DNA of 39,714 bases from a virus. The notes below the pieces were generated by a model. It saw only the letters and a program-made list of their open reading frames with translations. It made no database searches and was not told the origin of the DNA. Position numbers and translations under genes: made by a program. The stretch is from positions 1-39,714 of the IMG/VR virus record IMGVR_UViG_3300030118_006568. One strand, written 5' to 3'. How positions within the stretch are numbered: position 1 is the stretch's first letter; each line of letters starts with the position of its first letter. This document shows, piece after piece, positions 1-39,714 of this stretch.

Positions 1-99
1 AGGGTTTAGCTATAATATATTGGATTTAGAAACGTATGGACGCACATTACTAACTAAAGATATTTCTAACAATTTAATATTTCAAGAAGAAAAGAACCC
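1..99. repeat. terminal direct repeat, copy 1
   Basis: These 99 bases are identical to 39616-39714. Both copies lie in the same reading frame of one methyltransferase gene, and joining them rebuilds an intact protein. This is best read as the overlap left when a circular or circularly permuted genome is assembled, not as a biological long terminal repeat. The unique length is 39,615 bp. Confidence 0.95.
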
Positions 100-280
100 G
101 AGACAATTTACTACTCGAGAATGCGCAAGATATCAAGGATTTCCAGAAACATTTAAGATACCAGATAATCTTGGGAAGGAAACCACGTACAAGCAATTTG
201 GCAACAGCGTAGCGGTACCAGTAGTTAACCGAATAGCAAAGCAAATGATGAAGGCACTCGAAAGGGTGCCTTTTTCATAA
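2..280 (+). CDS. DNA (cytosine-5) methyltransferase, C-terminal part
   Basis: This is the 3' part of the gene that begins at 38975; joining at the repeat gives 306 residues, close to HhaI-class enzymes (about 330). The segment carries motif IX (residues RECARYQGFP) and motif X (GNSVAVPVV), the end of a C5-cytosine methyltransferase that transfers a methyl group from S-adenosylmethionine to cytosine. It has no start of its own because the window opens inside the gene. The last codons form an intrinsic terminator. The sequence between motifs VIII and IX, which carries target recognition, is short, implying a short target. No partner restriction gene is adjacent, so protection of phage DNA against host restriction is the likely role. 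Confidence 0.95.
   Translation, partial: GFSYNILDLETYGRTLLTKDISNNLIFQEEKNPRQFTTRECARYQGFPETFKIPDNLGKETTYKQFGNSVAVPVVNRIAKQMMKALERVPFS
253..275 (+). terminator. intrinsic terminator inside the end of the methyltransferase gene
   Basis: GGCACTC pairs with GGGTGCC (one G-T pair) around a GAAA tetraloop and is followed by five T. It lies inside the last codons of the methyltransferase. With the terminator at 38924-38955 upstream, it makes the methyltransferase gene a self-contained cassette. Confidence 0.85.
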
Positions 281-294: not shown

Positions 295-348
295 ATGACG
301 TTAAAGGATCTCATTGACATCATCTACATCATTATTATTGGTGTGTGA
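295..348 (+). CDS. 17-residue hydrophobic peptide (MTLKDLIDIIYIIIIGV)
   Basis: A tiny reading frame follows a ribosome site (AAGGAG, 7-8 bases before ATG) and ends just before the Shine-Dalgarno of the phytase. The peptide has a short charged N-terminus and an Ile-rich tail able to insert into or lie on a membrane. It matches in length and pattern a second peptide directly after the phytase (1492-1545): both contain I-D-I-I, then I-I, then G before the last residue. No function is recognised. It could be a membrane-active peptide or a leader that couples translation into the phytase gene. Its reality rests on the ribosome site and on the matching second copy. Confidence 0.5.
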   Translation: MTLKDLIDIIYIIIIGV

Positions 349-363
349 AAGGAGGTGAATCGA

Positions 364-1461
364 ATGCGTGTGACAACAACTCTGTTAGCAATTGCGCTAC
401 TTTTATGTACCACTGCTTTTGCTACGCCCATGCCACAAAAGACCTTTCCTGTTACCGCAGATATAGAAACTACACCCGTACACAATTCAGGCGATGCGGC
501 GGATGATCCTGCTATCTGGGTTCATCCAACGGATGTAACTAAGAGCAGAATCCTAGGGAGCGATAAGCAAGAGGGAATTGAGGTATATGACCTTGATGGG
601 AACCGAACAGTGAGCTATGACTTTGGGAAAATAAACAACATTGATCTTCGCTATGGCTTCCCTCTCGGAGGAAAGCGTGTGGACATTGTCGGCGGATCTA
701 ATAGAACTAGTTGGGAAATATCCCTCTATACAATAGAGGAAGGCCGCTTGCGTAATGTGAATGGCGCACCCATAAAACCCAAAATGCCCAAAATGTACGG
801 GTTTTCAATGTACCATAGCCAGCGCACAGACAAATATTACGCCCTGATCGCTGGTAAAGGCGGAGAGTTTGAACAGTATGAACTCTATGACAATGGACAA
901 GGGAAGATCGACGGGAAACTGGTTCGCTCGATGAAGTTCTCTTCGATGACAGAAGGGATAGTAGCAGATGATGAATATGGGTTCATCTATGTAGCAGAAG
1001 AACGAGGAAGCGTGTGGAAGTTTAATGCTGAACCAGGTGACGATACACTCACTAAGATTGGTACAGCTTGGGACGGAATGCTTACACCAGATATTGAGGG
1101 CATGACAATATACTATACGTCAGATGGTGGCGGATATCTCATCATCTCCAGCCAAGGGAATAGCACCTATGCAGTATATGACCGTGTAACCAATAAATAT
1201 ATTAATAGCTTTGAAATCAATAAAGGCATAGTGGATGGTACCTTTGATACTGATGGTATTGATGTGGTGAGCTTCGGCCTAGGGGATAAATGGCCTAATG
1301 GCTTCTTTGTTGCCCAAGATGGAGTCAACACAGACAAGCGATTCCCTTTCTTATTCAATCAGAACTTCAAAGTAGTGTCATGGGAGAAGATAGCAAAAGC
1401 CCTAAACTTGAAAATAGATAATAGCGTTAACCCACGTCATCTCCAGAAAAGAGGCGAGTAG
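364..1461 (+). CDS. secreted beta-propeller phytase (3-phytase)
   Basis: Beta-propeller phytases are calcium-dependent enzymes that remove phosphate from phytate outside the cell. The 365-residue protein has the family length and its landmark motifs: DAADDPAIW (44-52), NNIDLRY (91-97), EG followed by ADDEYG (177-186), the acidic VAEE stretch (near 190-193), DIEG (213-216), SSQGNSTYA (232-240), DGTFDTDGID (261-270) and FVAQDG (285-290). These hold the acidic calcium-binding and substrate-site residues of the family, and none is obviously missing. Residues 1-20 form a signal peptide with a likely cut after AFA. ATG 364 is preferred because AAAGGAGGTG lies six bases upstream; the GTG at 355 is inside that site. 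The gene follows a terminator and has no head or tail role, so it is a moron. It probably lets lysogens release phosphate from phytate. Confidence 0.93.
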   Translation: MRVTTTLLAIALLLCTTAFATPMPQKTFPVTADIETTPVHNSGDAADDPAIWVHPTDVTKSRILGSDKQEGIEVYDLDGNRTVSYDFGKINNIDLRYGFPLGGKRVDIVGGSNRTSWEISLYTIEEGRLRNVNGAPIKPKMPKMYGFSMYHSQRTDKYYALIAGKGGEFEQYELYDNGQGKIDGKLVRSMKFSSMTEGIVADDEYGFIYVAEERGSVWKFNAEPGDDTLTKIGTAWDGMLTPDIEGMTIYYTSDGGGYLIISSQGNSTYAVYDRVTNKYINSFEINKGIVDGTFDTDGIDVVSFGLGDKWPNGFFVAQDGVNTDKRFPFLFNQNFKVVSWEKIAKALNLKIDNSVNPRHLQKRGE

Positions 1462-1491
1462 CTTCCTCTCTTATGAGAGGGGGTGAGCAGA

Positions 1492-1545
1492 ATGGACTTC
1501 TTACAACCTATCATTGATATAATCCGCGGAATCATCGGATTGTAG
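1492..1545 (+). CDS. 17-residue amphipathic peptide (MDFLQPIIDIIRGIIGL)
   Basis: This tiny frame has a GAGAGGGGGTGA ribosome site before its ATG. The peptide would form an amphipathic helix with one Arg and two Asp on an Ile/Leu-rich background, like short membrane-active peptides. It is exactly as long as the peptide before the phytase and shares the I-D-I-I and I-I-G pattern, so the phytase gene sits between two similar micro-peptides. A weak five-base-pair hairpin (1551-1565) follows without a T-run. No known family is recognised. Confidence 0.5.
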   Translation: MDFLQPIIDIIRGIIGL

Positions 1546-1584
1546 TCGAGGCCCCTTAACGGGGCTACATAAGGAGATGATCAT

Positions 1585-1797
1585 ATGGACTTCATTAATA
1601 CTATTAATTGGGAAAATGTGTTGTATGCGATATTCACACTTTTGGCGGCAAGTGGTGTTACATTCAGTTGGCTCAAGAAGATGTGCCAGAAGATTGAATC
1701 TACTAATCTACGTGTGGAAGAGCACAGGGACGAGATACGCGAGATTGTGGATGAGATGAGGAAGCTGATCGAAAACAACAAGGGGGCGAAGCCATGA
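1585..1797 (+). CDS. small membrane protein with coiled coil, holin-like (BhlA/XhlA-type topology)
   Basis: The 70-residue product has one membrane segment (about residues 12-30, VLYAIFTLLAASGVTFSWL), a short basic stretch (KK) and a charged helical tail rich in E, R, D and K. This is the layout of BhlA/UviB- and XhlA-type phage membrane proteins that help lysis. AAGGAGATGATC precedes the ATG. Its stop overlaps the next start (ATGA). It is not next to the endolysin at 18192, which is unusual for a holin, but no better holin candidate is seen near the endolysin. Role inferred from topology only. Confidence 0.6.
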   Translation: MDFINTINWENVLYAIFTLLAASGVTFSWLKKMCQKIESTNLRVEEHRDEIREIVDEMRKLIENNKGAKP

Positions 1798-1979: not shown

Positions 1980-3257
1980 ATGCTACAGAAGTTGAAGAAG
2001 ATGCTCAATATACAAGAGAAAAAACAATATGGTGCATACTCCCTCCTGAATGGGCCATGGAGTGTGTGGGGTTGGGATTCACAAGTAACAGGATGGAAGT
2101 ATGATCGATACGCATGGTTGGGCTACATGATGAACCCTATTGCGTATCGAGCGGTGAATATTATCGCTGATGCAGTAGCTGGAATACCATGGAAATTATA
2201 CCGTAAGATGGCAGATAATCGGGATGTAGAGATTGAGCAAGCTCCTGTACTAGATCTCCTCAAGCGACCTAACCCATCCATGGGTGAAAAGGACTTCTTT
2301 GCACAGTTCGTACAGTACTTACAATTAAGCGGAAACACATATGTTCGCAGTGCAGGGCCAAGCTCCGGGATGAATCCGAAGGAGCTTTATTTTTTACGAC
2401 CAGATCGCATTGAGATAAAAAGCGGTGATTGTGGTCTGGGGGGTATATGCCCCGACGAGTTCGACGGATTGATATATGAATACACGTGTGGGAATGCCAA
2501 GGAGCGTATCGACCTAAGATACTTCCATCACACGCGGTTGTGGAATCCACTGTGCGATCTATATGGCCTGTCACCATTGCAACCAGCTAGCTCTAGCATT
2601 GACCAACTAAACGAGGCCCTACAGTGGAATGTATCGCTACTTAAGAATTCTGCCTCCCCATCGGGCGTGCTCTCTAGCGATGGTAACCTATCGGATGAAC
2701 AAATTGCTAGATTGAAAGAGCAAATGGCATTGAAACATCAAGGGGTGTGGAACAGTGGTAAGCCACTCTTGCTTGAAGGCGGATTGAAATTTGACCAAAT
2801 GGGCATGAGCCCTAAAGACATGGACTGGATTAAAGGAACACAATTGGCCACCAAGAACATTTGTTTGACACTAGGAATTGACCCTAGTCTAATGGGAGAT
2901 AGCGATCACAAGACGTATTCTACATTCCGAGATGCTGAACGTTCGTTCTATATAAATACGGTTATTCCACTTCTCGAGAAGATAAGAGATGACTTCTTAA
3001 ATAGATGGCTATTACCAAGGTTCAACATGGGCGATAACGTATACTTCGAATTCGATATCGCAGCCATAGAAGTTCTTTCGGACTCAAGGACTGAGGTTTT
3101 TGAAAGAATGATATCGGGGGTAGCGGCAGGCATTATAACGGTGAATGAAGCTCGCGAGGAATTGGGTTACAGCGAGCTAAATAATCCGGAGGACGATACA
3201 ACACGCGATGACACAGAGGAATATATAGACATTGAAGAGCGTCCTGACGAAGGATGA
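1980..3257 (+). CDS. phage portal protein (HK97 family)
   Basis: Portal proteins form the dodecameric ring at the capsid vertex through which DNA enters and leaves. The 425-residue length and features are those of the HK97 portal family: N-terminal region with NPIAYRAVNIIADAVAGIPW, the core RYFHHTRLWNPLCDLYGLSPLQPA, a stem/crown region around residues 290-360 and an acidic C-terminal tail. A consensus AGGAGGTGA precedes ATG 1980. TerL lies about 5 kb upstream on the circle at 35447, not directly before the portal as is usual, because the small-gene cassette, methyltransferase and phytase island have been inserted between them. Confidence 0.95.
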   Translation: MLQKLKKMLNIQEKKQYGAYSLLNGPWSVWGWDSQVTGWKYDRYAWLGYMMNPIAYRAVNIIADAVAGIPWKLYRKMADNRDVEIEQAPVLDLLKRPNPSMGEKDFFAQFVQYLQLSGNTYVRSAGPSSGMNPKELYFLRPDRIEIKSGDCGLGGICPDEFDGLIYEYTCGNAKERIDLRYFHHTRLWNPLCDLYGLSPLQPASSSIDQLNEALQWNVSLLKNSASPSGVLSSDGNLSDEQIARLKEQMALKHQGVWNSGKPLLLEGGLKFDQMGMSPKDMDWIKGTQLATKNICLTLGIDPSLMGDSDHKTYSTFRDAERSFYINTVIPLLEKIRDDFLNRWLLPRFNMGDNVYFEFDIAAIEVLSDSRTEVFERMISGVAAGIITVNEAREELGYSELNNPEDDTTRDDTEEYIDIEERPDEG

Positions 3258-3282: not shown

Positions 3283-3627
3283 ATGGCAAATGTACCAATT
3301 TATTTAAATCAAGGTGGAACTGTCCTTACAATTGGCGAGGGCGGAAGTATTGATACCTCCGCAACCTCCGCAGATGTTGCAACAGGCAAAACGCTAGTGG
3401 GATCAAAAATGTTTATCTCTTCTGTGCAAACTGGAGACGGCATGGCGCAGAACGTAGCGCATTTTCTGGGCGTAACACCTTCAGCATATGTGATTATTCC
3501 CCAAGTTGTGCCGATGGGAGCCGGCGGAGAATTCAGCGCAGTTGTGGACGCGATGAACACGGATGAAACGAATATCGTGTGCACTGTTACAGATCAAGTG
3601 GACTATCAAGTCGTGGCGTGGGCGTGA
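3283..3627 (+). CDS. putative head fibre or decoration protein
   Basis: The 114-residue protein begins with a repeat-like stretch (G-G-T-V-L-T-I-G-E-G-G-S-I) resembling the N-terminal head-binding segment of phage head fibre proteins, followed by a small beta-rich domain with few charges. It lies between portal and prohead protease, where some phages carry a head accessory protein. Its stop is coupled to the protease start (TGATG). The AAGGGGG ribosome site is strong, suggesting a structural protein made in quantity. The name is an inference from pattern and position. Confidence 0.5.
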   Translation: MANVPIYLNQGGTVLTIGEGGSIDTSATSADVATGKTLVGSKMFISSVQTGDGMAQNVAHFLGVTPSAYVIIPQVVPMGAGGEFSAVVDAMNTDETNIVCTVTDQVDYQVVAWA

Positions 3628-4358
3628 TGAATATGGAAACTAAAGATTTCAAAGTAGAGTTTAAAGACTTCGACGACAGAACAGGCGAATTCGAAGCGTA
3701 TATTTCTACTAAAAGTATTGACTCTCACAATGATAGAGTATTGCCCACTGCATTTAATCGCAGTGTTTCCCACAACAAAGGAGTTTTCCCAATATTATGG
3801 ATGCATGACGTTAGCAAGCCTGTGGGCGCGAGTACAAAGCTATCTATAGAGAAGGATGGCGTGCGTGCGTTCGGAAAGGTCAATCTGGATATAGAACTCG
3901 GGCGAGAAATATACAGCGGTATGAAATTTGACCCACCCTACATTGATCGCACTAGTATCGGGTTCCAGTCTCTAGATGACGAATATGACAGGAAGACGAA
4001 TATCCGCACCATTAAAGAACTAAAGCTGATGGAATTTAGTCTCATAACTCGTAACTTCGCATCCAATTCCGAAGCAACAGTACAATCAGTGAAATCTGAT
4101 TCACCCATATACAAACGAATAGAAGATCTTGAGAAGAGGTTCGGGGATAATCCCGAGCTTCTTTTTATGTTGGAGCAAAGACTTCATGAACTAGAACAAC
4201 GCATGGCTGGCTCGCAGATTAGCACCCAGCCAACAGAGTGCTCGTCTGATGACACCACTCAACCCGAATCAACTGAGTTACGAGATGAAATGAAATCTGA
4301 TCCTGTGCTAATGGGTGTACTCGATGACTTTAAAAAATATCTGAGGGGTGACAAGTGA
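3627..4358 (+). CDS. prohead maturation protease (HK97 U35 type)
   Basis: The 243-residue protein cleaves scaffold domains during capsid maturation. The N-terminal 130 residues contain the family pattern: I-D-S-H-N-D-R-V (about 30-37), the catalytic-His region PILWMHD (about 55-61) and the catalytic-Ser region DRTSIGFQS (about 107-115). The C-terminal 90 residues are charged and helical, as expected for a fused scaffold-like tail. The start at 3627 overlaps the preceding stop; the frame opens at 3579, but the earlier codons lie in the upstream gene and lack a ribosome site. The capsid gene follows with a TGATG overlap. Confidence 0.9.
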   Translation: MNMETKDFKVEFKDFDDRTGEFEAYISTKSIDSHNDRVLPTAFNRSVSHNKGVFPILWMHDVSKPVGASTKLSIEKDGVRAFGKVNLDIELGREIYSGMKFDPPYIDRTSIGFQSLDDEYDRKTNIRTIKELKLMEFSLITRNFASNSEATVQSVKSDSPIYKRIEDLEKRFGDNPELLFMLEQRLHELEQRMAGSQISTQPTECSSDDTTQPESTELRDEMKSDPVLMGVLDDFKKYLRGDK

Positions 4359-5599
4359 TGTCATTGATTGAACAAAAGACACTAGCTGAAGAGTTACAAA
4401 GTGTGTTTGAACAATTTAAAGAAACGAATGAACAGAAGAGTGTGGAGATTAATAAGCTTGGTGAAGAAACAAAAGAAACGCGTAATAAGATGGAGAAAAT
4501 GAGTGACCGGATGGATGAAATCGAAACAAAATTGAGCCGTCCTCAGTTACAAGCTACAGATACTCGAGATGTTCAAAACGAGTACACAAAAGCATTCGTA
4601 GATTGGTTTAAAAAAGGTGACGAAAGAATAAAAGGTATGGACACCAAGGCTACATTCCCGAACATGAACGAAACTATCGATCCACAGGGGGGGTATCTAG
4701 TTCCGCCAGAGTGGTATCAGAGTGTAGTAGATTCATTGGTCCAGTGGTCTCCTGTGCGCCGTTACGCTACTGTGTTGCGCATGAATCGCAAAGAGTTACG
4801 CATCCCTGTTCAACAGCAAGCACAGAATCTACAGACAGGAACACCAGCATCTGGACTATTCCGGACAAGTTGGGGGAGCGAATTTGGCCCTATTACGCAA
4901 ACGGACACGGGACTGTTAGGGCAGAAAACACTCGTAGCATGTGACTTAAATGCTTTCCCATTTGCTACTAATGACATGATCGATGATAGCGCATATGGAT
5001 CTATTGAAGCGTATATCCAAGAAAATATAGCCAAGTCGATTGCTTACGCAGAGGGCAGAAGCTTCGTTGTGGGAGACGGCATATTAGAGCCAACAGGGCT
5101 TTTAAACCCAACTGTTACAGGGAGCTATTCTTCGGTAACAGCAACAGGAGTCGCCAACACCATAGGTACAACTGGAGATGTATTAATTGATGCATTCTAC
5201 ACACTTCCAGATTTCTATGCGCGCAACGGAACATGGTTCATGAACCGTCAAACGATTAGAATTGTACGCGAATGGGTTGATGGACAAGGGCAGTATCTAT
5301 GGACTCCAACCTTTGGCAATACATTAAGCACCGAAGCACCAGGCGCAATCCTCGGACGTCCCTACCAAGAGCTTATTGATATGCCTGCTCCTAATAACGC
5401 TGGAGTCTATGAAAATGGATCTATTCCTATTCTCTTCGGTGACATGAGATCGGCATATTACATTGGTGACCGTTTAGGCATGACAATGCTACGTGACCCT
5501 TACACCAACAAGCCGTACGTAAGCTATTGGACTCGCAGTCGTGTAGCTGGAAACGTAATTCTTCCAGAGGCACTAGTTAAAATCGAGTTGGCATCTTAA
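4358..5599 (+). CDS. major capsid protein (HK97 fold)
   Basis: The 413-residue protein has an N-terminal charged coiled coil (about residues 5-65) typical of the HK97 delta/scaffold domain removed by the protease, then the shell domain with motifs such as GGYLVPPEW, S-P-V-R-R-Y-A and GRPYQELIDMP followed by an acidic patch and the P-domain end ILPEALVKIELAS. The start is ATG 4358 in a TGATG overlap with the protease; GTG 4355 is possible. The GAGGGGTGA ribosome site is strong. Order portal, fibre, protease, capsid is the standard head module. Confidence 0.95.
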   Translation: MSLIEQKTLAEELQSVFEQFKETNEQKSVEINKLGEETKETRNKMEKMSDRMDEIETKLSRPQLQATDTRDVQNEYTKAFVDWFKKGDERIKGMDTKATFPNMNETIDPQGGYLVPPEWYQSVVDSLVQWSPVRRYATVLRMNRKELRIPVQQQAQNLQTGTPASGLFRTSWGSEFGPITQTDTGLLGQKTLVACDLNAFPFATNDMIDDSAYGSIEAYIQENIAKSIAYAEGRSFVVGDGILEPTGLLNPTVTGSYSSVTATGVANTIGTTGDVLIDAFYTLPDFYARNGTWFMNRQTIRIVREWVDGQGQYLWTPTFGNTLSTEAPGAILGRPYQELIDMPAPNNAGVYENGSIPILFGDMRSAYYIGDRLGMTMLRDPYTNKPYVSYWTRSRVAGNVILPEALVKIELAS

Positions 5600-5616
5600 T
5601 AGAGGAGGAAAATCAA

Positions 5617-6036
5617 ATGGCAAAAATGGATATGTACAATAATATTGCTCCACTTCTTCAAATCCCGCCTCTCGCGTATTCGGCTACAGAAACACCAGCA
5701 ACTGGGGCGGACTTACAAGGATACGAGTCTTGTACGTTTATAATCACCACAGCGGACATAACGAGCGGTACTTGGACGGTTACATTCGAGGAATCGGATG
5801 AAGAATCTGCAAATTTTACCGAAATTGATGCAGCCGATCTATTGGGAAGTGCGCCTGGTCCCTTTACAAATTCTGGTGCTTTTGATGAAAAAATTTACAA
5901 AGTAGGATATATCGGAACAAAACGTTATGTGCGTTGCGTGGTGACCGAAACCGCCATGGGCACGGCTAATTTTAGCGTCATTGTAGAACGTGGAAATCCG
6001 CATAGTGCGCCTACACCAACCGACTTGAATGCGTAG
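5617..6036 (+). CDS. conserved phage structural protein, probable head decoration
   Basis: The 139-residue protein contains a pattern seen in phage proteins located right after the capsid: an N-terminal D-M-Y-N-N-I, a beta-rich body with L-Q-G-Y-E-S, F-E-E-S-D-E-E and then V-G-Y-I-G-T-K-R-Y-V-R, ending in P-H-S-A-P. It resembles hypothetical proteins found between capsid and connector genes. An AGAGGAGGAAAA ribosome site suggests strong expression. A capsid-surface or accessory role is inferred from position. Confidence 0.55.
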   Translation: MAKMDMYNNIAPLLQIPPLAYSATETPATGADLQGYESCTFIITTADITSGTWTVTFEESDEESANFTEIDAADLLGSAPGPFTNSGAFDEKIYKVGYIGTKRYVRCVVTETAMGTANFSVIVERGNPHSAPTPTDLNA

Positions 6037-6048
6037 GAGTGATACATT

Positions 6049-6249
6049 GTGAAACGAGTACGCATGATTCGTACTAAGCATATGCAGCGCGGAAGCCAAA
6101 GATATCGATACGACGAGGGGAAGGTATTTTATCTTCCCCTTAATGTTGCAAAAATGTTTATCCAAGAAGGATCAGCGATGGAAGATAAGTCTGTGGACGC
6201 GCCATCCGAAACAAAAGCAAAGCCCAAGCGTAAGAAAAAAGCCATTTGA
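6049..6249 (+). CDS. small basic head-region protein
   Basis: The 66-residue product starts at GTG 6049 with AGGAGTGA upstream. It has the form of small proteins common beside capsid genes (V-R-M-I, then a G-x-V-F-Y-L-P-L-N-V-A-K-M-F-I-Q-E-G-S-A body) and a very basic C-terminal tail, KPKRKKK, that could contact DNA. The 51-residue protein at 1794 has a similar body without the basic tail. Function is unknown. Confidence 0.6.
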   Translation: MKRVRMIRTKHMQRGSQRYRYDEGKVFYLPLNVAKMFIQEGSAMEDKSVDAPSETKAKPKRKKKAI

Positions 6250-6263
6250 GGAGGTGAGGGGGT

Positions 6264-6881
6264 ATGTCGTGGCGACTCATCGTACCGCCAACAGTAACGC
6301 CCGTGAGCGTGTCAGAGGCAAAAGAACACGAGCGAATATCTATCAATGATGCAGCCGAGGACTTACTAATACAACAACAACTATTCGCTGCTACTCGATT
6401 TGCAGAAGAGTTTACACGTCGCGCTTTCGTTACCCAGACCTGGGAGCTACGTACTACAAAAATCGCGCAAATTATGGAAATTCCACGGCCCCCACTTCTT
6501 GAGATTATTCCAAATAGTACCGACGCATCAAGCATGGTGTTCACTAACATGAATGATGTAACTACTGCTATCGACGACGATACCTGGTTTCAAGACAATG
6601 TGGATGAGCCCGGTCGTCTAATATTCAAGTCCAGTTTAGCATTCCCATATCCTTGGGCCACATGGGGGTGGGGATGCATTCCGTATGGGTACATGACGCT
6701 GAAGTTTCGCGCAGGATATGGTGTCGACGGGGATACGAGTGTGGAAAATATCCCTTGGGAAATTAAAGAGGCTATCCTGCAAATATTCGGCTTCTTGTAC
6801 CAGAACCGCGAAGGCCAGCCTATCCCGTGCGGAAGCGTTGCGCATACGTTACTCCAGCCGTTTAAGGTGGAATATTTATGA
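6264..6881 (+). CDS. head-tail connector protein (gp6-like)
   Basis: The 205-residue protein begins P-P-T-V-T-P-V-S-V-S-E-A-K-E-H, then an alpha-helical part with F-A-E-E-F-T-R-R-A-F, a middle beta region and a C-terminal helix ending near F-L-Y-Q-N-R-E-G. This is the layout of the HK97 gp6 / SPP1 gp15 adaptor family that docks under the portal. GAGGAGGTGAGGGGG precedes ATG 6264. The next gene starts in an ATGA overlap. Position in the connector cluster supports the call. Confidence 0.8.
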   Translation: MSWRLIVPPTVTPVSVSEAKEHERISINDAAEDLLIQQQLFAATRFAEEFTRRAFVTQTWELRTTKIAQIMEIPRPPLLEIIPNSTDASSMVFTNMNDVTTAIDDDTWFQDNVDEPGRLIFKSSLAFPYPWATWGWGCIPYGYMTLKFRAGYGVDGDTSVENIPWEIKEAILQIFGFLYQNREGQPIPCGSVAHTLLQPFKVEYL

Positions 6882-7300
6882 GCTGTGGATTCGGTGCAGG
6901 TTGTGGAAAGGGAAACTATAAGCCGTCTGTATTTCCGGCGATTGACGCGGGCTCCTTTCGCCAAAAGGTAGAGATACAGACGCCATTTCTTCTCGAGGAT
7001 AACCAGGGTGGAGGATTGTATCAATGGTCTACTATTGCCACAGCATGGGCACGTATTGAAACGATTGATAGTGGTTCCTACGGGTCGTTGGTTAACCGCG
7101 AAAATTGGGAAGAAGGCCAGTTACGGGCACGTAATAGTTATAGAATCACACTGCGCTATGGCCCTACAATCACTACAGATATGCGCATCATCTATAATGG
7201 AAGAGATTTAGAGATACAGTCAGTAGTAAATGTAGACGAGTTAAATTGGGTGATTACGTTATTTTGTCAGGAGATGGGAAACGGTGAACCTCAAAATTAA
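6878..7300 (+). CDS. head-tail joining / head closure protein (PF05521 type)
   Basis: The 140-residue protein has a short Gly/Cys-rich N-terminus (CGFGAGCGKG) followed by a compact beta-rich domain: F-R-Q-K-V-E-I-Q, W-A-R-I-E-T-I, then Y-R-I-T-L-R-Y and M-R-I-I-Y-N-G-R-D-L-E-I-Q-S-V. This pattern is typical of SPP1 gp16-like head closure proteins that seal the portal channel after packaging. It overlaps its neighbours on both sides, as expected in a tight morphogenesis operon. The Cys-rich tip before the conserved domain is unusual. Confidence 0.8.
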   Translation: MSCGFGAGCGKGNYKPSVFPAIDAGSFRQKVEIQTPFLLEDNQGGGLYQWSTIATAWARIETIDSGSYGSLVNRENWEEGQLRARNSYRITLRYGPTITTDMRIIYNGRDLEIQSVVNVDELNWVITLFCQEMGNGEPQN

Positions 7301-7730
7301 AGTTCTTGGAGTAAACCAAGCCATCAATAATATTGAGAACTACATGAAGCGTAAGCACGCTAGTCTATTAGGTGCGGTCGCTGAATCGTCGGCTTCTATA
7401 AAATCAGAAGCTAGGAGTCTAACACCTGTGGATTTAGGAGATCTTCGTGACAGTATCAACTATACAGTTAAAGATCGCAAGAATGTAATTGAGGGCGACA
7501 TCTTAGCAGATTCTTCTTACGCTGCCTATGTTGAATTCCCCACTAGGCCTCACTGGGCTCCGCGAGAGGCGTTGCAAGGATGGGCTGACCGTCATGGCAT
7601 TCCAGTATATGCCGTACAACGAGCCATCGCTGAAAAAGGAACACTTGGTAAGCCGTATATGGCTCCAGCAGCTGCTCGTGAGAAGCCCAAATTTATCCGC
7701 GCGGTTAGAAGGGCTATGAGTAGCCCATGA
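7284..7730 (+). CDS. HK97 gp10-like neck / tail completion protein
   Basis: The 148-residue basic protein matches the HK97-gp10 family pattern: an N-terminal helix, then T-P-V-D-L-G-D-L-R-D-S-I, A-A-Y-V-E-F, and a C-terminal K-P-Y-M-A-P-A. These proteins lie between head closure and tail terminator and help join head and tail. The start is GTG 7284 with AGGAGA about eight bases upstream, overlapping the preceding gene by 17 bases. The C-terminus overlaps the next start by four bases. Confidence 0.85.
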   Translation: MNLKIKVLGVNQAINNIENYMKRKHASLLGAVAESSASIKSEARSLTPVDLGDLRDSINYTVKDRKNVIEGDILADSSYAAYVEFPTRPHWAPREALQGWADRHGIPVYAVQRAIAEKGTLGKPYMAPAAAREKPKFIRAVRRAMSSP

Positions 7731-8167
7731 GCGGAGGAAATAGTTTTAACCCGATACTCGTAGCTGTTACACAACTTTTGAAAGCAGACCCCACGCTGAT
7801 GAGTCAGGTTACTGGGGTCTTTAATTTTGTACCTGATAATCAACTTTTTCCGTACGTTTGCATTAACACCACGTCGCCAAATCAATATCAAACCATGGAC
7901 CGATACGGGCAAGATGTAACTATAAACGTAGATGTATACGGGCAAACGATTGGACCCAATGCTTATCAAGGCTCTAAACAAATAAACGACATTATGAACT
8001 CTGTGCAACGCCTGTTATCGCGTACATTCTTTCCAATTATAGGGTGGAGCAATCTTGGATGTGTGGGAACATACTCTAATACTCTCCAAAACGGAAAGGG
8101 ACTCACGTATCAGGGTGTTATGCGATTTGAATTAAAAGTACTACAAGAGTACAGTCCCGATTATTAA
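7727..8167 (+). CDS. probable tail terminator protein
   Basis: The 146-residue protein follows the gp10-like gene in an ATGA overlap and sits before the tail-region paralogs. The pattern L-L-K-A-D-P-T-L, F-N-F-V-P-D-N-Q-L-F-P-Y-V-C-I, then V-T-I-N-V-D-V-Y and the C-terminal G-V-M-R-F-E-L-K-V resembles DUF3168-type tail terminators that cap the tail tube. The function is supported mainly by position and this pattern. Confidence 0.7.
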   Translation: MSGGNSFNPILVAVTQLLKADPTLMSQVTGVFNFVPDNQLFPYVCINTTSPNQYQTMDRYGQDVTINVDVYGQTIGPNAYQGSKQINDIMNSVQRLLSRTFFPIIGWSNLGCVGTYSNTLQNGKGLTYQGVMRFELKVLQEYSPDY

Positions 8168-8178
8168 GGAGGGATACA

Positions 8179-8526
8179 ATGCCCCGTACAGTTATTACAG
8201 TAACTAACTTGGACCCTCAAAAGAGCGTGGGACTAACACTAGAAGACGCAGACGCAATGAATGGCATGATGTTTTCCAATGATGGCACCTCAGCCCTCGT
8301 GGTTAAAAATGATGGGGCAATGGACCCTGTGCAAGTAACCATTGTTGCTGTACCTGACGAGGCCGGCCGCGCTGTGAATTATGTAAAAACCGTAGACGCT
8401 GGAACCACGGAGGTATTTGGATACTATTTACCTGCGTGGTGGAATCAGACGGCTCAAAATCTTGGATATATCTATGTAGACTTCGATGATGATACGGACA
8501 TTAAAGTCGGAGTTATTAACTTTTAG
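8179..8526 (+). CDS. tandem paralogous structural protein A
   Basis: This 115-residue protein is the first of four consecutive paralogs (8179, 8538, 8922, 9300). Shared marks are N-D-G near residue 33, a D-x-A-G-R around residue 60, an A-W-W-N in place of the R-P-I-W-W-N of the others, and a C-terminal N-F. It is the most divergent copy. The body is beta-rich and acidic. A strong ribosome site (AAGGAGGG) suggests high expression. I do not recognise the family; position between tail terminator and tail tube gene suggests a virion decoration or tail-surface protein. Confidence 0.7.
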   Translation: MPRTVITVTNLDPQKSVGLTLEDADAMNGMMFSNDGTSALVVKNDGAMDPVQVTIVAVPDEAGRAVNYVKTVDAGTTEVFGYYLPAWWNQTAQNLGYIYVDFDDDTDIKVGVINF

Positions 8527-8537
8527 GAGGGGATAAA

Positions 8538-8909: not shown

Positions 8910-8921
8910 GGAGGGGCATAA

Positions 8922-9287: not shown

Positions 9288-9299
9288 GAGGAGGGACCT

Positions 9300-9641: not shown

Positions 9642-9651
9642 ATACAAAGAG

Positions 9652-9674
9652 AACACCCGTTGAGGTGTTTTTTT
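9652..9674 (+). terminator. intrinsic terminator after the paralog array
   Basis: AACACC pairs with GGTGTT around a six-base loop and five further T follow. It separates the head/paralog block from the tail block and ends 23 bases before the tail tube start. Some read-through or a local promoter would be needed for the tail genes. Confidence 0.8.
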
Positions 9675-10123: not shown

Positions 10124-10136
10124 GAGGGGATATTTA

Positions 10137-19693: not shown

Positions 19694-21292
19694 ATGAGAG
19701 TAGCTTCACTTGTTACATGTATAATCATTGCTTCCACCTCTACAGGATTTGCGTTTACCAAGCCTGCTGTTCAAAAGACTACACCTGAGTATAAGATCCA
19801 GCGTGTGGCAGGCTCTAAAATTATGAGTAACTTGGCTAATAAAACATCTGAAGATAAAATGCCCGTCGTTGTTACTTTTAACAACATGAACGGGGCTAAG
19901 AAGTTTAAAAAGAAGTGTAAGCGTAAGTATCGCCATATTCCAGCAGTGGCCACAGAAATGACCATGGCTGAGGTACACGAGACAGCTAAGAATCCTGATG
20001 TATCCCAAATAGATTATGATGAGCAAGTGAAAGCGATGGATGATGGATCCGACTACTGGTATGGAACAAAGAAGGCACGCACAGACTTTGGAGTTAGTGG
20101 AGATGGGGATGGAAATATTTCTTCTTTCACCAAGGAAGACAGCACGATTGCTGTTATTGATACAGGGATTGATGCTAACCATGTGGACTTACAAAACAAA
20201 GTAATTGGTTGGTACGATGCAACCTATCTAGCGAGGACAACGCCTTATGATGACAACGGCCACGGGACACATGTTGCTGGTATTGCAGCAGGTAAGGGTG
20301 TGGGAAATGCAGACTATATAGGCGTGGCTCCAGGAGCTTCACTTGTAGGTATTAAAGTGTTAAGTGGTAGTGGTGGTGGAACTACCAGTGATGTAATTGA
20401 AGGCATCGACTGGGCTATTGCCAATAAAGATAAGTACGGGATTAAAGTAATTAATATGAGTTTAGGTACAGATGGTAGCTCTGATGGTAGAGATGCTACA
20501 TCTTTAGCCGTAAATAGAGCTGTGGACGCTGGTATTGTGTGTGCCGTTGCAGCAGGTAACAGTGGGCCAGATACTAAGACTGTGGGGTCTCCTGGTGCTG
20601 CTGATAAGGCTCTTACTGTGGGAGCTATGGCAGACCCAAGTGAAGGTGGTTTTAATCTCGCATCCTTCTCTAGCCGTGGGACAACTGCGGACGGACGTAT
20701 TAAACCCGATATTGTGGCACCAGGGTATAAGATTATGGCTGCTAAGGCAAATAGCGGGAATGGATATGTTTCACTCAGCGGTACGAGTATGGCGACTCCC
20801 TTCGTAGCTGGTGTAGCGTCGCTAATGCTAGATGCAAACTCATCTTTAACACCTGCTCAGGTACAACAGAAGATGGAGGCTACAGCGGAGAACTGGGGGC
20901 CTTCAGGTAAAAATGTGGACTATGGTAGCGGTAACCTTAAAGCATATGACGCGATTAAGTCGGCTGGTGGATTCGCTGGCGTTGGCCCCACACTTCCACA
21001 GCACATCTATAAAGAGGGGACTATATCTTCTTGGCGTGGGAAGCAGGACTACACATTCAGCTTTAAAGCAGGGCAAAAGGTTGCTATTACAATGATTATC
21101 CCACAGTGGTACTTCTCTGTACCCGACCTAGATGTATACTTACTCAACCCTTCTGGTGGCACAGTGTCCTATTCAATTGGCACGAAGCGTCAGGAGACAA
21201 TCACGTACACTGTACCTACTACAGGCACGTATACGGTGAGTGTACGCTCCTATTTAGGCACAGGAAGTTACTTCTTCGATCTAAGCGCATAA
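19694..21292 (+). CDS. secreted subtilisin-like serine protease with pro-peptide and C-terminal PPC domain
   Basis: The 532-residue protein has a signal peptide (about 1-20), an I9-like inhibitor pro-peptide (about 35-115, with M-P-V-V-V-T-F), and a peptidase S8 domain with Asp156 (A-V-I-D-T-G-I-D), His190 (N-G-H-G-T-H-V-A-G), oxyanion Asn289 (A-A-G-N-S-G-P) and Ser365 (S-G-T-S-M-A-T-P). A C-terminal pre-peptidase (PPC) domain runs from about 445 to 532 (D-L-D-V-Y-L-L-N-P and T-Y-T-V-S-V-R-S-Y). All catalytic residues are present. TTAGGAGGG precedes the ATG. Such enzymes digest proteins outside the cell after self-removal of the pro-peptide. It is not virion-like, so lysogenic conversion or host-matrix degradation is likely. 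Confidence 0.95.
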   Translation: MRVASLVTCIIIASTSTGFAFTKPAVQKTTPEYKIQRVAGSKIMSNLANKTSEDKMPVVVTFNNMNGAKKFKKKCKRKYRHIPAVATEMTMAEVHETAKNPDVSQIDYDEQVKAMDDGSDYWYGTKKARTDFGVSGDGDGNISSFTKEDSTIAVIDTGIDANHVDLQNKVIGWYDATYLARTTPYDDNGHGTHVAGIAAGKGVGNADYIGVAPGASLVGIKVLSGSGGGTTSDVIEGIDWAIANKDKYGIKVINMSLGTDGSSDGRDATSLAVNRAVDAGIVCAVAAGNSGPDTKTVGSPGAADKALTVGAMADPSEGGFNLASFSSRGTTADGRIKPDIVAPGYKIMAAKANSGNGYVSLSGTSMATPFVAGVASLMLDANSSLTPAQVQQKMEATAENWGPSGKNVDYGSGNLKAYDAIKSAGGFAGVGPTLPQHIYKEGTISSWRGKQDYTFSFKAGQKVAITMIIPQWYFSVPDLDVYLLNPSGGTVSYSIGTKRQETITYTVPTTGTYTVSVRSYLGTGSYFFDLSA

Positions 21293-21792: not shown

Positions 21793-22050
21793 CTAGTCTT
21801 CAAAAGTAAAAGCCGCCTTCGTTCTTTTCTTCTTGATATTACTTTCTGTCTGGCCAGGAGTGGTAATTTTACCTCCAATACCAGGTATCTGCTCCCCCAT
21901 ATTTATCATGTATGAAAGGATTAGATTTTTTACAAGACCACCAAAGGATTGCTTATTATTCTTCATTTTTAAACTGTACAGGTACATTGCGTTTTCAATA
22001 GGGTCATGTGTATTAAACGATACTGTTTTGTTCTTCAACCCATCACGCAT
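21793..22050 (-). CDS. parR: ParR-like centromere-binding protein
   Basis: The 85-residue basic protein follows the ParM-like gene with an eight-base overlap. Its N-terminal part K-T-V-S-F-N followed by a helical stretch (N-A-M-Y-L-Y-S-L-K and S-F-G-G-L-V-K-N-L-I-L-S-Y-M) fits a ribbon-helix-helix DNA-binding fold, and the C-terminal tail is polar with K-K-K-R-T-K. In type II partition systems this protein binds repeats at parC and caps ParM filaments. The family call rests on fold pattern and operon position. GGAGGATG precedes its ATG. Confidence 0.75.
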   Translation of the reverse strand: MRDGLKNKTVSFNTHDPIENAMYLYSLKMKNNKQSFGGLVKNLILSYMINMGEQIPGIGGKITTPGQTESNIKKKRTKAAFTFED

Positions 22051-22936
22051 TTAATAACACATCCTCCAGTATGGTGTATAAACCATTCACATTAGCATTT
22101 CGAGGATTAGGATATGTCTCAGCTCTGGGAAATACCTGTTTAATGTATGGCAATACGATATCAGCTACACCACCAAAAACTTGTGTTTTATAGTGCGCTG
22201 ACCACCCTTGTAGCTTCACTTCATCAATAGCCTTCTGAGCTAGTTCCTTTGCCATAAGATCAACCTTATCCTGTGGTAACGACTTATCACTTACCCCTCG
22301 CAAACCATACATATGTTTCATTATCTCCCACCCGTCATCTATGGTTCCAGAACTAAGGTTATCGTATTCTTGATCTTCGTTGTGGAAGCAGTAGTTAATA
22401 GTTTTAGCTCCAAAATCAAAAGTCTGAGTACATTCCTCTTGCTTTTGAGACCAGTATGCGGCTACTCCCTCCTGAGATATCATGACTCTAGTAATATCAA
22501 TTTCTCCCTTAACCGCGGTTGGTTCTGTTCGGCTCTTTTCAACAAGCCAATATGTAAATCTATGTTGCCCTAGAAGTAATGCCCTAACTGCTTTTCTCTC
22601 CTCGGGAGTAAAATTATCAACAGGAACGAGGACTCCCAGATCAATTTCCCCTTGTGATAATCCCGCGTATATAGCTGCTGCGATCACTTGCACGCGGAGT
22701 ATAGGATCTGCCTTGGATTCACTAAAGTTATTTCTCTTAAAGCGCTTTCCTTCTGTTTCTGCGAGCTTCCCTACCCACCATTTTTCACCATCAATATGTA
22801 TTTCTAACGAATTTAAGTAATACTCAGGATTGTTTCTAGTCTTAGCCACAGATACCGCGCTAGGGAATGCTCTTACACCTGTCTCGCATTTTATTTCAAC
22901 TTCACTTCTACCTGCATCTACTGCCAACAATGCCAC
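22043..22936 (-). CDS. parM: ParM/Alp-like actin ATPase, plasmid partition
   Basis: The 297-residue protein has the actin-like layout: phosphate-1 loop near the N-terminus (L-L-A-V-D-A-G-R-S-E), L-G-V-L-V-P-V-D in the first half, a phosphate-2 type F-D-F-G-A-K-T-I, a helical region and a C-terminal F-G-G-V-A-D-I-V-L-P adenosine motif. Such proteins form filaments that push plasmid copies apart. The start chosen is GTG 22936 with AGAGGTGA before it; GTG 22945 lies in that site. It forms an operon with parR. Its presence in a phage genome that lacks an integrase indicates a plasmid prophage. Confidence 0.85.
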   Translation of the reverse strand: MALLAVDAGRSEVEIKCETGVRAFPSAVSVAKTRNNPEYYLNSLEIHIDGEKWWVGKLAETEGKRFKRNNFSESKADPILRVQVIAAAIYAGLSQGEIDLGVLVPVDNFTPEERKAVRALLLGQHRFTYWLVEKSRTEPTAVKGEIDITRVMISQEGVAAYWSQKQEECTQTFDFGAKTINYCFHNEDQEYDNLSSGTIDDGWEIMKHMYGLRGVSDKSLPQDKVDLMAKELAQKAIDEVKLQGWSAHYKTQVFGGVADIVLPYIKQVFPRAETYPNPRNANVNGLYTILEDVLLNA

Positions 22937-22967
22937 GCCTATCACCTCTACATGGGATAATTACAAT

Positions 22968-25782: not shown

Positions 25783-25935
25783 GTGGAAGTAATTTCTAAC
25801 AGCATTGTAAGATTATGTTTAGAAAAAAGCGACATTTTGGATAAAAAGCAGAGCGAAGCCATCGAGGAGATATACTTATTCTTAATTTCAGAACAGACTA
25901 CTTCTCCTCATCCTCTAATGTCACACTCTTCATGA
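25783..25935 (+). CDS. short protein convergent with the repressor gene
   Basis: A 50-residue frame starts at GTG 25783 with GAGAGGT five bases upstream. The product is polar and helical (C-L-E-K-S-D-I-L-D-K-K-Q-S-E-A-I-E-E-I). It overlaps the end of the minus-strand repressor gene by 38 bases. Reality is uncertain. Confidence 0.4.
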   Translation: MEVISNSIVRLCLEKSDILDKKQSEAIEEIYLFLISEQTTSPHPLMSHSS

Positions 25936-26251
25936 TTTTATATATCTCCCATATCTTGTCTAGCTGATCATCGGTAGCTGGCTTACCATTAATTATTGGG
26001 CGCGTGAAGTTCCTTACCATATTTACAGGCTGGTCAGGATGGCGCTCTTTAACAGAGGTAAGACCAAGTAGGTAGTCAAGGGAAACGTTGAAAACTTTGG
26101 CTATTTTGACTAAGTTATCTGCTCCAGGTTTAAGTGAATCTCTTTCATATTCGACAATTGTAGATTGCCCAATTCCAATATGTTGAGATAGCTCTGATTG
26201 ACTCATTTTATGTGATTTTCTTAGTTCTTTTAGCCTAATTCCGAATGACAT
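25898..26251 (-). CDS. CI-like phage repressor (HTH_3/XRE family)
   Basis: The 117-residue protein has an N-terminal XRE helix-turn-helix (about 6-60: I-R-L-K-E-L-R-K-S-H-K-M-S-Q-S-E-L-S-Q-H-I-G-I-G-Q-S-T-I-V-E-Y-E) with the following Y-L-L-G-L helix, and a short C-terminal part (about 75-117). No LexA-type self-cleavage peptidase is present, so induction would need an antirepressor or protease as in phi105- or ICEBs1-like switches. It is divergent from the Cro-like gene at 26429, the standard temperate switch. Confidence 0.85.
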   Translation of the reverse strand: MSFGIRLKELRKSHKMSQSELSQHIGIGQSTIVEYERDSLKPGADNLVKIAKVFNVSLDYLLGLTSVKERHPDQPVNMVRNFTRPIINGKPATDDQLDKIWEIYKIMKSVTLEDEEK

Positions 26252-26299
26252 CTTCGTATCTCCCTACACTATTGCAAATTTTATATTTATATTAACACT

Positions 26300-26320
26300 T
26301 AAGGGACTCAGAGTCCCTTA
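26300..26320. promoter_or_regulatory. 21-bp perfect palindrome in the switch region
   Basis: TAAGGGACTC and GAGTCCCTTA flank a central A, in the 177-bp gap between repressor and Cro-like genes. This is a strong operator candidate for the CI- or Cro-like protein. A T-rich tail on the plus strand means it could also terminate a short leftward-opposed RNA. Confidence 0.6.
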
Positions 26321-26350
26321 TTTATTTGTTTAATATTATCACAAAAACGA

Positions 26351-26379
26351 TTGACTAAATATCGGTATAATGATATTAT
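26351..26379 (+). promoter_or_regulatory. probable early rightward promoter
   Basis: TTGACT and TATTAT are 17 bases apart, 50 bases before the Cro-like start. A better -10-like TATAAT (26366-26371) lies only nine bases after the -35 and so is not used with it. Transcription would start near 26386. Confidence 0.65.
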
Positions 26380-26428
26380 TAACTTATCGGGTTGCTAATA
26401 ACAACAATTATACACGAAGGAGGATAAC

Positions 26429-26644
26429 ATGAGAAGCACACTACGAAACGAACGAACTAAAAGGAACCTCACACTAGGACAAGTCGCTAAAGCATCCGGT
26501 ATTAAAAGGTCGCACTACAACAATATTGAACTGGGTAAAGGAAATCCATCACACGAGGTATCCTGCGCTATAGGTAAATACTTTGGAATAATAGACATCT
26601 GTGAACTATTCAAACGAGACGGAGAAAACGACGATGAAAATTAA
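26429..26644 (+). CDS. Cro-like helix-turn-helix regulator
   Basis: The 71-residue protein is almost entirely an XRE helix-turn-helix: L-R-N-E-R-T-K-R-N-L-T-L-G-Q-V-A-K-A-S-G-I-K-R-S-H-Y-N-N-I-E-L-G. It is the first gene of the rightward early operon and opposite to the CI-like repressor. GAAGGAGGA precedes the ATG. It probably represses the lysogeny promoter in lytic growth. Confidence 0.85.
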   Translation: MRSTLRNERTKRNLTLGQVAKASGIKRSHYNNIELGKGNPSHEVSCAIGKYFGIIDICELFKRDGENDDEN

Positions 26645-35425: not shown

Positions 35426-35446
35426 TTTGTTTATGGGGTGAATGGG

Positions 35447-36652
35447 GTGAAGGCTAAAATAAAATTATACACACCTCATTCTGCTCAACAAAGACTTCAC
35501 GCATCACTCAAAAGGTTCATCGTAGTAAGCTGTGGGAGAAGATTTGGGAAAACACTCATGGCCATCAATGAGTTAGTTAAACACGTCTGGGAAAATAAGG
35601 GTCAGCGTGGTTATTGGATCGCTCCAGTATATCGCCAGTGCCGTTTAGCGCATAGATTAATTACGCAAGAGTTCGATAATATCGTTAAAAGTTCCACGCT
35701 CAATCCTATGGAGATTCATTTAGTTAATGGGAGCGTCATTCAATTCGCTAGTACCGAAAACTCATCAAATATCCGTGGTGACCATGCGCATATCATGGTG
35801 ATTGATGAAGCGTCTCTAGTACCTGAAGAAGCATGGACGAATGTTTTGAGGCCGATGCTCTCAGATACTGGCGGACGTGCTATAATTATATCAACTCCAC
35901 GGGGAATCAACTCTTGGTTCCATACTTTATTCACTCGAGGCCAAGACCCAGAGTACCCAGACTACGCATCATTCAAATTCCCCACATCCGCTAATCCATA
36001 CATACCGCCCACAGAAATAGAAGAAGTACGTAGCACACTTCCCTCAGACGTATTTAAACAAGAGTATCTCGCAGAGTTCCTAGAAGATGGTGGCCAAGTG
36101 TTCCGTAACGTTATGTCATGCGTGAAAGACACACTGGAGGTGCCTATAAGTGGCCGATCCTATACTTGTTCTTGGGATATTGCTAAGCATACCGATTTTT
36201 CTGCTGTTGTCGTCATGGAAAATTCTACTGGACGAGTTGTTGCAATGGATCGATTCAATCGAGTAGACTACAGCTTGCAAGTAAAGCGCGTGGAAACAAT
36301 GGCGCGTAAATACAATAACGCTAAGGTGATACTTGACAGTAGTGGTGTGGGAGATCCTATCCTTGAGGCTGTGCAGAAAACAGGGTTAAACGTCGAAGGA
36401 TATCAATTCACCAACACGAGTAAGCAACAGTTAATTGAACACCTTGCGGTACTGATTGAGAAGCAGGAAATAAGCTATCCGAATGACAAAGTACTCATAA
36501 ACGAGTTAATGAGCTACCAATACGAGATTACTAGAGCGGGCAACATGAGATATAACGCGCCGTCTGGACAAAATGACGACTGTGTAATTGCACTAGCTCT
36601 AGCATCGTGGGGAGCGAAGCACGGAAGTATACCACAAGTGAGGTGGTTATAA
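35447..36652 (+). CDS. terminase large subunit
   Basis: The 401-residue packaging motor has an ATPase domain with Walker A (C-G-R-R-F-G-K-T, about 29-36) and Walker B (I-M-V-I-D-E-A, about 116-122), and a nuclease domain with acidic residues in W-D-I-A-K-H-T-D-F-S, L-D-S-S-G-V-G-D-P and Q-N-D-D-C-V-I-A-L-A-L-A. GTG 35447 is chosen since GGGGTGAA lies upstream; GTG 35438 is possible. It pumps DNA and cuts concatemers. The circular assembly of the contig suggests either headful packaging or cos ends. Confidence 0.95.
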   Translation: MKAKIKLYTPHSAQQRLHASLKRFIVVSCGRRFGKTLMAINELVKHVWENKGQRGYWIAPVYRQCRLAHRLITQEFDNIVKSSTLNPMEIHLVNGSVIQFASTENSSNIRGDHAHIMVIDEASLVPEEAWTNVLRPMLSDTGGRAIIISTPRGINSWFHTLFTRGQDPEYPDYASFKFPTSANPYIPPTEIEEVRSTLPSDVFKQEYLAEFLEDGGQVFRNVMSCVKDTLEVPISGRSYTCSWDIAKHTDFSAVVVMENSTGRVVAMDRFNRVDYSLQVKRVETMARKYNNAKVILDSSGVGDPILEAVQKTGLNVEGYQFTNTSKQQLIEHLAVLIEKQEISYPNDKVLINELMSYQYEITRAGNMRYNAPSGQNDDCVIALALASWGAKHGSIPQVRWL

Positions 36653-38974: not shown

Positions 38975-39714
38975 ATGAAGTTCATTGATCTTTTCGCTGG
39001 TATCGGTGGTATGCGTCTAGCATTCGAAGATTTTGGCACATGTGTATTCTCTTCAGAGATTGATAAGAAAGCGTGCGATACTTATCAACTCAACTTTGGA
39101 GAGAGACCGCACGGGGACATAACCAAAATAGATGCGAAAGACATTCCAGATCATGACATCCTTCTCGCTGGCTTCCCTTGTCAAGCGTTCAGCATGGCGG
39201 GTAAGCGGTTGGGATTTGAGGATGCTAGAGGAACCATGTTCTTTGAAATTGCACGCATCCTAAGAGAAAAGAAGCCAAGAGCATTTTTATTGGAAAATGT
39301 GAAAGGACTTACTCATAAGCCTTTCCGTCGTGAGTTTACAACCATTTTAAATATATTGGACGAATTGGGATATAATGTTGAATGGAAAGTACTTAGTTCA
39401 AAGGGATTGGTTCCGCAGAATCGTGAACGAGTTTATATTGTAGGAATGGATCGCATCGTTAACTTTTTGAAATTCGAATGGCCCATACTACCCGATAAAG
39501 GGCCCCCAGTAAAAAGTATCTTAGAGGATAACGCAGATGATAAGTATACTCTCCCCGATGGGACATGGAATCACTTTCAGCGCAAGAAAGAGAAGTATGG
39601 GCATGGGAAATCAGGAGGGTTTAGCTATAATATATTGGATTTAGAAACGTATGGACGCACATTACTAACTAAAGATATTTCTAACAATTTAATATTTCAA
39701 GAAGAAAAGAACCC
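38975..39714 (+). CDS. DNA (cytosine-5) methyltransferase, N-terminal part
   Basis: GGAGGTGATG precedes ATG 38975. The protein shows motif I (F-A-G-I-G-G, 7-12), motif IV with catalytic Cys69 (F-P-C-Q), motif VI (E-N-V, 107-109) and motif VIII (Q-N-R-E-R-V-Y-I-V-G, 148-157). It is cut by the window end and continues at 100-280; the total is 306 residues. It methylates cytosine C5 using S-adenosylmethionine. It lies after a terminator with no clear promoter in the 20-base gap, so expression probably needs read-through or a promoter within the leader. Confidence 0.95.
   Translation, partial: MKFIDLFAGIGGMRLAFEDFGTCVFSSEIDKKACDTYQLNFGERPHGDITKIDAKDIPDHDILLAGFPCQAFSMAGKRLGFEDARGTMFFEIARILREKKPRAFLLENVKGLTHKPFRREFTTILNILDELGYNVEWKVLSSKGLVPQNRERVYIVGMDRIVNFLKFEWPILPDKGPPVKSILEDNADDKYTLPDGTWNHFQRKKEKYGHGKSGGFSYNILDLETYGRTLLTKDISNNLIFQEEKN
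39616..39714. repeat. terminal direct repeat, copy 2
   Basis: Identical to 1-99; see that entry. The duplicated bases lie within the methyltransferase gene. Confidence 0.95.

Follow-up and report, generated by a model that had tools for sequence, protein, structure and literature searches.

A predicted secreted beta-propeller phytase as an accessory gene of a probably temperate phage-plasmid-like siphovirus

Phytate is one of the main forms in which soil and plant matter store organic phosphorus, and beta-propeller phytases are common in bacteria. The presence of a phytase-like reading frame among the genes of a virus raises the questions whether it encodes a true enzyme, whether it belongs to the phage at all and whom it would serve. 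We analysed the IMG/VR virus record IMGVR_UViG_3300030118_006568 over its whole length of 39,714 nucleotides (referred to here as the window). An earlier note, made from the sequence alone, had described there a complete secreted beta-propeller phytase carried by a phage and had proposed it as a candidate auxiliary metabolic or lysogenic-conversion gene. Taken together, our results make it probable that the locus encodes an intact, secreted, calcium-dependent phytase, a Bacillota-derived accessory gene of a temperate phage which would supply phosphate to the host and the phage.

The phytase and its active site

The coding sequence extends from the ATG at 364 to 1461 on the plus strand and encodes 365 amino acids; an in-frame GTG at 355 is an alternative start. 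The span 295-1545 given in the earlier note does not hold as the limits of the gene, since it also covers two separate mini-ORFs of 17 residues each (295-348 and 1492-1545). Its description of the product, in contrast, was borne out. The protein gave a single full-length Pfam match, to PF02333 (Phytase; 453.7 bits against a cut-off of 21, E = 6.4e-136, profile positions 21-375 of 375), and the NCBIfam search returned only a sub-threshold relative. Its sequence relatives in the PDB are exclusively the Bacillus beta-propeller phytases 1poo, 1cvm, 1qlg and 3amr (E values of 1e-101 to 1e-103; 1.8e-103 for 1poo), and the identity to the solved Bacillus enzyme is 51%. The two landmark motifs quoted in the note, GDAADDP and DGTFDTDGID, were found in the translation. 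The locus is composed of the following elements:

250..273, plus strand: terminator-like hairpin with a T run, overlapping the end of the methyltransferase gene (-20.1 kcal/mol, z = -6.95)
295..348, plus strand: 17-amino-acid micro-ORF MTLKDLIDIIYIIIIGV, preceded by a ribosome site of its own; the related phages L116 and L128 have it too
approximately 349..1571, plus strand: inserted cassette consisting of the phytase gene, a second micro-ORF and a hairpin, delimited by the empty-site alignment with L116
just upstream of the phytase start, plus strand: near-perfect Shine-Dalgarno sequence GAAAGGAGGTGA, seen in the sequence
364..423, plus strand: putative Sec-type signal peptide MRVTTTLLAIALLLCTTAFA/TPM without a lipobox, read by eye from the translation
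1492..1545, plus strand: second 17-amino-acid micro-ORF MDFLQPIIDIIRGIIGL, after the phytase gene and within the insert; absent from L116 and from the related contig L115
1585..1797, plus strand: small ORF of 70 amino acids with a putative N-terminal membrane segment and no Pfam or PHROG match

The proposed signal peptide is visible at the N terminus, with an AFA/T cleavage motif that was likewise recognised by eye. An AlphaFold2 model built from a 54-member alignment had a mean pLDDT of 93.8 and a pTM of 0.91, with low confidence confined to residues 1-20. In Foldseek searches, this six-bladed propeller model matched 1poo, 1qlg and 3amr with TM scores of 0.90 (normalised to the query) and 0.93-0.94 (to the target), generic propellers following far behind. 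Among the viral structures of BFVD, none was nearer to the model than a generic propeller, and the viral propellers reached TM scores of 0.55 at most. On the basis of sequence and model, the product is assigned as a bona fide beta-propeller phytase with a predicted six-bladed fold.

Active-site residues were mapped onto the numbering of TS-Phy and their conservation was measured over the 54 aligned sequences. The residues K76, E211, E227, E260, Q279 and D314, which are invariant in the alignment, are all kept in the phage protein, and so are the nearly invariant D55, D56, R122, Y159, D258, D308, D336 and N339. At K179, D312 and D341, positions variable across the family, the phage phytase agrees with the Bacillus enzyme. 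The sole lysine change on the substrate side is K77 to Q, a common alternative found in 15 of the 54 sequences. The roles of these residues in calcium binding, the affinity site and the cleavage site are presumably those described in the structural literature on TS-Phy. Judged by its residues, the active site is intact, with no sign of decay; the earlier note had argued in the same way against a decaying cargo gene, and no loss of calcium or substrate residues was found.

The carrier phage and the insertion site

Bases 1-99 of the window are identical to bases 39616-39714, and two halves of one C5-methyltransferase gene lie at its two ends; the unit is therefore an essentially complete circle of about 39,615 bp. 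Its main genes outside the phytase locus are:

38975..39714, plus strand: C5-cytosine methyltransferase, first part, running on at 1-280 across the circle
1..280, plus strand: C5-cytosine methyltransferase, last part, joining 38975..39714 (306 amino acids where whole, in L003)
1980..3257, plus strand: portal protein, start of the structural module (PF04860, E = 4e-79; phrog_2662, phrog_12)
19694..21292, plus strand: putatively secreted subtilase (S8) with a PPC domain (PF00082, E = 2.3e-61; PF04151)
21793-22050, minus strand: small putative DNA-binding partner of the partition protein (partition cassette 21793..22945)
22043-22945, minus strand: actin-like partition protein (PF17989, E = 1.4e-11; phrog_691 partition protein, E = 2e-29)
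25898-26251, minus strand: repressor (phrog_8/4/3 families, RstR/DicA-like NCBIfam models)
26429-26644, plus strand: Cro-like regulator, divergent from the repressor
34032-34571: terminase small subunit (phrog_309)
35438..36652, plus strand: terminase large subunit (PF03237/PF17289)

Genes for a prohead protease, capsid, head-tail connector, tape measure, Dit and other virion proteins were also found, as were those for an amidase endolysin, an ERF recombinase, an AAA protein and a primase/helicase. The phytase gene is thus flanked by phage genes within a complete phage genome; it lies between the methyltransferase (38975 to 280) and the portal gene, where the earlier note had placed it. One more small ORF separates the ORF at 1585..1797 from the portal gene.

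The divergent repressor/Cro-like pair at 25898..26644 is a probable lysogeny switch. On the minus strand, the region 21298-22945 contains the partition protein, its small downstream partner and a phrog_8582 protein, i.e. a plasmid-type maintenance module in a 39.6-kb siphovirus. The partition protein has ParM-like relatives in Psychrobacillus, Sporosarcina and Bacillus phages. No integrase was recognised among the larger ORFs of the window, which were those scanned. The repressor pair and the actin-like partition protein, in combination with the lack of a recognised integrase, point to a temperate phage-plasmid-like siphovirus, and for the same reasons the phage, when quiescent, probably persists as an extrachromosomal prophage. 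The window combines phage structural genes with partition genes of plasmid type and has no recognised integrase, which is the combination used to define phage-plasmids; its circularity alone is no proof of this, because headful packaging yields circular contigs too.

Two contigs from other IMG data sets (L002 and L003) span the methylase-phytase-portal junctions with an identity of 99.98-100%. The related phage L116, whose portal protein is 87% identical, provides a visible empty site: its micro-ORF MPDWLRDLIDIIYIIIIGV is joined directly to the post-cassette gene, the counterpart of the ORF at 1585..1797. Another relative, L115, carries neither the methylase nor the phytase gene and has a different ORF of 61 residues in their place. 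On account of the empty site in L116 and the missing phytase in L115, the phytase is classified, from these alignments, as an accessory insert (moron-type cargo). Gene turnover takes place at this site, which follows the terminator and precedes the portal gene.

The relationship to L115 is itself uneven. The two sequences are identical over about 14 kb (about 3.6-17.65 kb of the window; approximately 3579-17650), the identity falls to about 80% across the portal gene and the upstream genes are different, which marks either a sharp mosaic breakpoint or a mixed assembly. L115 could be such a mixed assembly, and L116 is independent of that worry.

The micro-ORF preceding the insert deserves description in its own right. 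A hydrophobic micro-ORF of 17-19 residues with the core DLIDIIYIIIIGV and its own ribosome site is kept between the packaging and portal genes, even in phages whose capsid proteins share only about 33% identity. Its counterparts lie at 9130-9189 on the minus strand of L116 and at about 2244-2300 in L128. Between the window and L116, 13 codons are shared and all differences are synonymous; in the core, one of the eight changes between the window and L128 is non-synonymous. A relaxed pattern for this micro-ORF matched no additional phages. From its sequence conservation, it looks like an unannotated phage micropeptide. The second micropeptide MDFLQPIIDIIRGIIGL is similar to the first and is perhaps a duplicate of it.

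Rarity, origin and host

The phytase had no match in 50,697 GenBank phages (INPHARED). The sensitivity of this search was adequate, since the same query reached cellular phytases down to 36% identity in a plasmid collection. PHROGs also gave no match. When 2.9 million IMG/VR contigs were scanned twice, once with family-wide patterns, nothing but this phage and two contigs of Bacillus subtilis was retrieved; the pattern needs one of two motifs, and records very near the window may have been left out. The phage copies in the collections are all near-identical. The failure to find other phage copies speaks for rarity in the collections scanned and does not prove uniqueness.

In both Bacillus subtilis contigs (L004 and L005), the host phytase gene sits at the very margin of the region called as prophage. 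In the chromosome, this gene adjoins a sugar epimerase gene, presumably spsM, in which SPbeta has its attachment site. Host phytases at prophage edges, apparently of SPbeta in these two cases, are a source of false phage-phytase calls in surveys of auxiliary metabolic genes. The two plasmid records with a Bacillus phytase that were inspected (CP035409 and CP094295; NZ_CP035409 and NZ_CP094295) were rejected as phage-plasmids, as they hold what look like chromosomal blocks (cge, msrAB, ilvA) deposited under a plasmid label.

Earlier reports are passing mentions. In the available text, a single sentence on activated sludge includes phy among the viral genes (PMC10589946), a marine study counts one viral class among the degraders of inositol phosphates (PMC12406696) and a third paper speaks of a 'putative 4-phytase' in the Cellulophaga phage phi38:1 (PMC13288928). 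The available parts of these three papers do not describe a beta-propeller phytase in a phage genome. The statement in the earlier note that no well-described phage phytase was known holds, with the qualification that passing mentions exist (PMC10589946, PMC13288928), and agrees with the INPHARED search.

A maximum-likelihood tree places the phage phytase inside the Bacillota clade with a support of 100/98. It stands there among lineages of Paenibacillus, Bacillus and Pelosinus, and the support for its exact placement is low (85/43). Its branch length of 0.65, compared with a median of 0.45, is not unusual. As the nearest sequences are only about 50-55% identical, the transfer appears to be old or the donor unsampled. 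The codon usage of the gene correlates with that of the phage core with r = 0.80, within the range of the core genes themselves (0.74-0.90), and this likeness argues for a long residence in the phage.

Bacillota is probably the host phylum, with Bacillus-like soil bacteria as hosts, which agrees with the relatives of the portal and partition proteins in Bacillales phages. Searches for the host with the terminase and portal proteins returned only distant prophage matches in 10 phytase-bearing genomes, 297 genomes of the Paenibacillus prosopidis family, 300 genomes of the Pelosinus class and 399 of the Paenibacillus class, the best portal match over all these genomes being 39%. No relatives of the phage core genes were found near 82 cellular phytases.

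Expression, benefit and comparison with known systems

The terminator proposed in front of the phytase was recovered as the hairpin at 250-273 (z = -7 when rounded), and hairpins of -13.9 and -15.9 kcal/mol occur at the same place in the relatives L115 and L116. The first start codon follows about 20 nt past the hairpin, and the relatives have the same layout of a hairpin and then the first ORF. Between the hairpin and the phytase gene, promoter-like sites occurred at about the rate of shuffled sequence with no consensus promoter among them, and no PhoP-box-like repeat was recognised by eye upstream of the gene. The stretch upstream of the phytase is the coding sequence of the first micro-ORF, which is also kept in L116 without the phytase. 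The short distance from the hairpin to the first start and the lack of a promoter above the shuffled background fit expression by read-through or antitermination in the structural operon, i.e. as a late gene, or else from a promoter type outside the scan. Such expression weakens a purely lysogenic role. Lysogenic conversion by the phytase is plausible, and we consider the chances that the enzyme acts at least partly in the lysogen to be about evenly balanced.

According to the reading that we prefer, an ancestor of the phage would have taken the gene from a Bacillota bacterium and would now hold it as an accessory (moron) gene at the variable site where the methylase region ends, ahead of the structural operon. 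The protein would be exported from the infected or lysogenised cell via Sec and adopt a six-bladed propeller fold built around calcium. It would then release phosphate from extracellular calcium-phytate, so that a phosphate-limited host and the replicating phage could both gain inorganic phosphate.

A role in the lytic cycle is a possible alternative that we would put forward tentatively. Transcribed at the head of the late (structural) operon, the phytase would feed phosphate to phage DNA replication in the manner of cyanophage phosphate genes; cyanophages carry pstS and phoA for phosphorus acquisition, and the classic phage phosphate genes act during infection. The location upstream of the portal gene on the same strand suits this role, as do the 20 nt behind the hairpin, which leave no room for a promoter, and the layout in L115 and L116, which suggests read-through into the late operon. 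However, a secreted enzyme made late would return phosphate slowly and share it with neighbours, and the temperate and partition genes of the phage favour a long-term benefit.

It is unlikely that the phytase is neutral cargo, that is, a bacterial gene caught by chance and not yet lost, of no benefit to the phage or the host. Its occurrence in one phage type and its absence from a relative sharing 14 kb of identical DNA would be expected of such a gene, but 365 codons have stayed open with every invariant active-site residue despite about 50% divergence from the nearest relatives, the codon usage is phage-like, and both the near-perfect ribosome site and the putative signal peptide are kept. 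An old neutral gene should have decayed, although the divergence may stem from an unsampled bacterial donor.

A virion or structural propeller merely resembling a phytase, a notion prompted by the nearby portal gene and by the propellers that occur in virions (the generic BFVD matches), is highly improbable in view of the similarity in sequence and fold to true phytases only, the putative Sec signal peptide and the complete set of catalytic residues. We likewise reject, as having hardly any probability, an assembly chimera or a host chromosome edge miscalled as viral: two false viral phytases of the latter kind, apparently beside SPbeta, are known in IMG/VR (the contigs L004 and L005 stop no more than a few bases from the host phytase gene), but here phage genes flank the phytase inside a closed circle, the junctions recur in L002 and L003, the site is uninterrupted in L116 and the codon usage fits the phage.

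Beyond the endolysin gene, the window encodes a second candidate cargo enzyme, the subtilase, with intact D/H/S motifs (DTG, GHGTH and GTSM) and a putative Sec-type signal. No relatives of it were found in IMG/VR with its own patterns, and the L115 contig ends before the corresponding position. It is a possible second lysogenic-conversion enzyme as judged from its motifs, and the two predicted secreted hydrolases lie at opposite ends of the late region. This arrangement allows a broader picture, which we offer with reserve: a lineage of temperate phage-plasmids of soil Bacillota may bear secreted nutrient-foraging enzymes, a phytase and a subtilisin-like protease, at both ends of the structural operon, enabling lysogens to use phytate and carrying an enzyme of the soil phosphorus cycle from one bacterium to another. 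A phage with a complete secreted phytase would let phages spread phytate mining and would tie lysogeny to the phosphorus cycle; together with the empty-site relatives, the gene is well defined for testing whether phages feed their hosts by extracellular enzymes.

The closest known systems are the Bacillus alkaline phytases PhyC and TS-Phy (1POO, 2POO and 3AMR), which the phage enzyme resembles in sequence (51%), six-bladed fold, length, calcium and phosphate residues and a putative Sec-type signal. It differs from them in being phage-borne and not chromosomal, in having Q in place of K77 and in forming a separate deep branch within the Bacillota clade. The Bacillus subtilis phytase of L004 and L005 also occurs in 'viral' IMG/VR contigs and is 50% identical, but it is a host gene and not phage cargo. 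The Psychrobacillus phage PVJ1, the Sporosarcina phage Lietuvens and the Bacillus phage PJN02 encode ParM-like partition proteins 22-27% identical to that of the window; they belong to other phage lineages and have no phytase matching the one described here.

The phi38:1 'putative 4-phytase' is, like the product studied here, a phage protein named as a phytase, and its detection in virocells is mentioned in the available text (PMC13288928). It is not a beta-propeller phytase, as phi38:1 is in the phage collection searched and gave no match to the phage phytase; the name '4-phytase' is not used in the part of its GenBank record that was examined. The viral phoA, phoD, phoN and phy genes of activated sludge are comparable as phage cargo possibly raising the phosphate supply of the infected cell; phy is covered there by one line, with no gene context or phytase class in the available main text (PMC10589946), whereas here a closed genome, a verified active site and an empty site are at hand. 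The phytase itself is an ordinary member of its family; the novelty lies in its carrier, a phage resolved at genome level and having a relative with the empty site.
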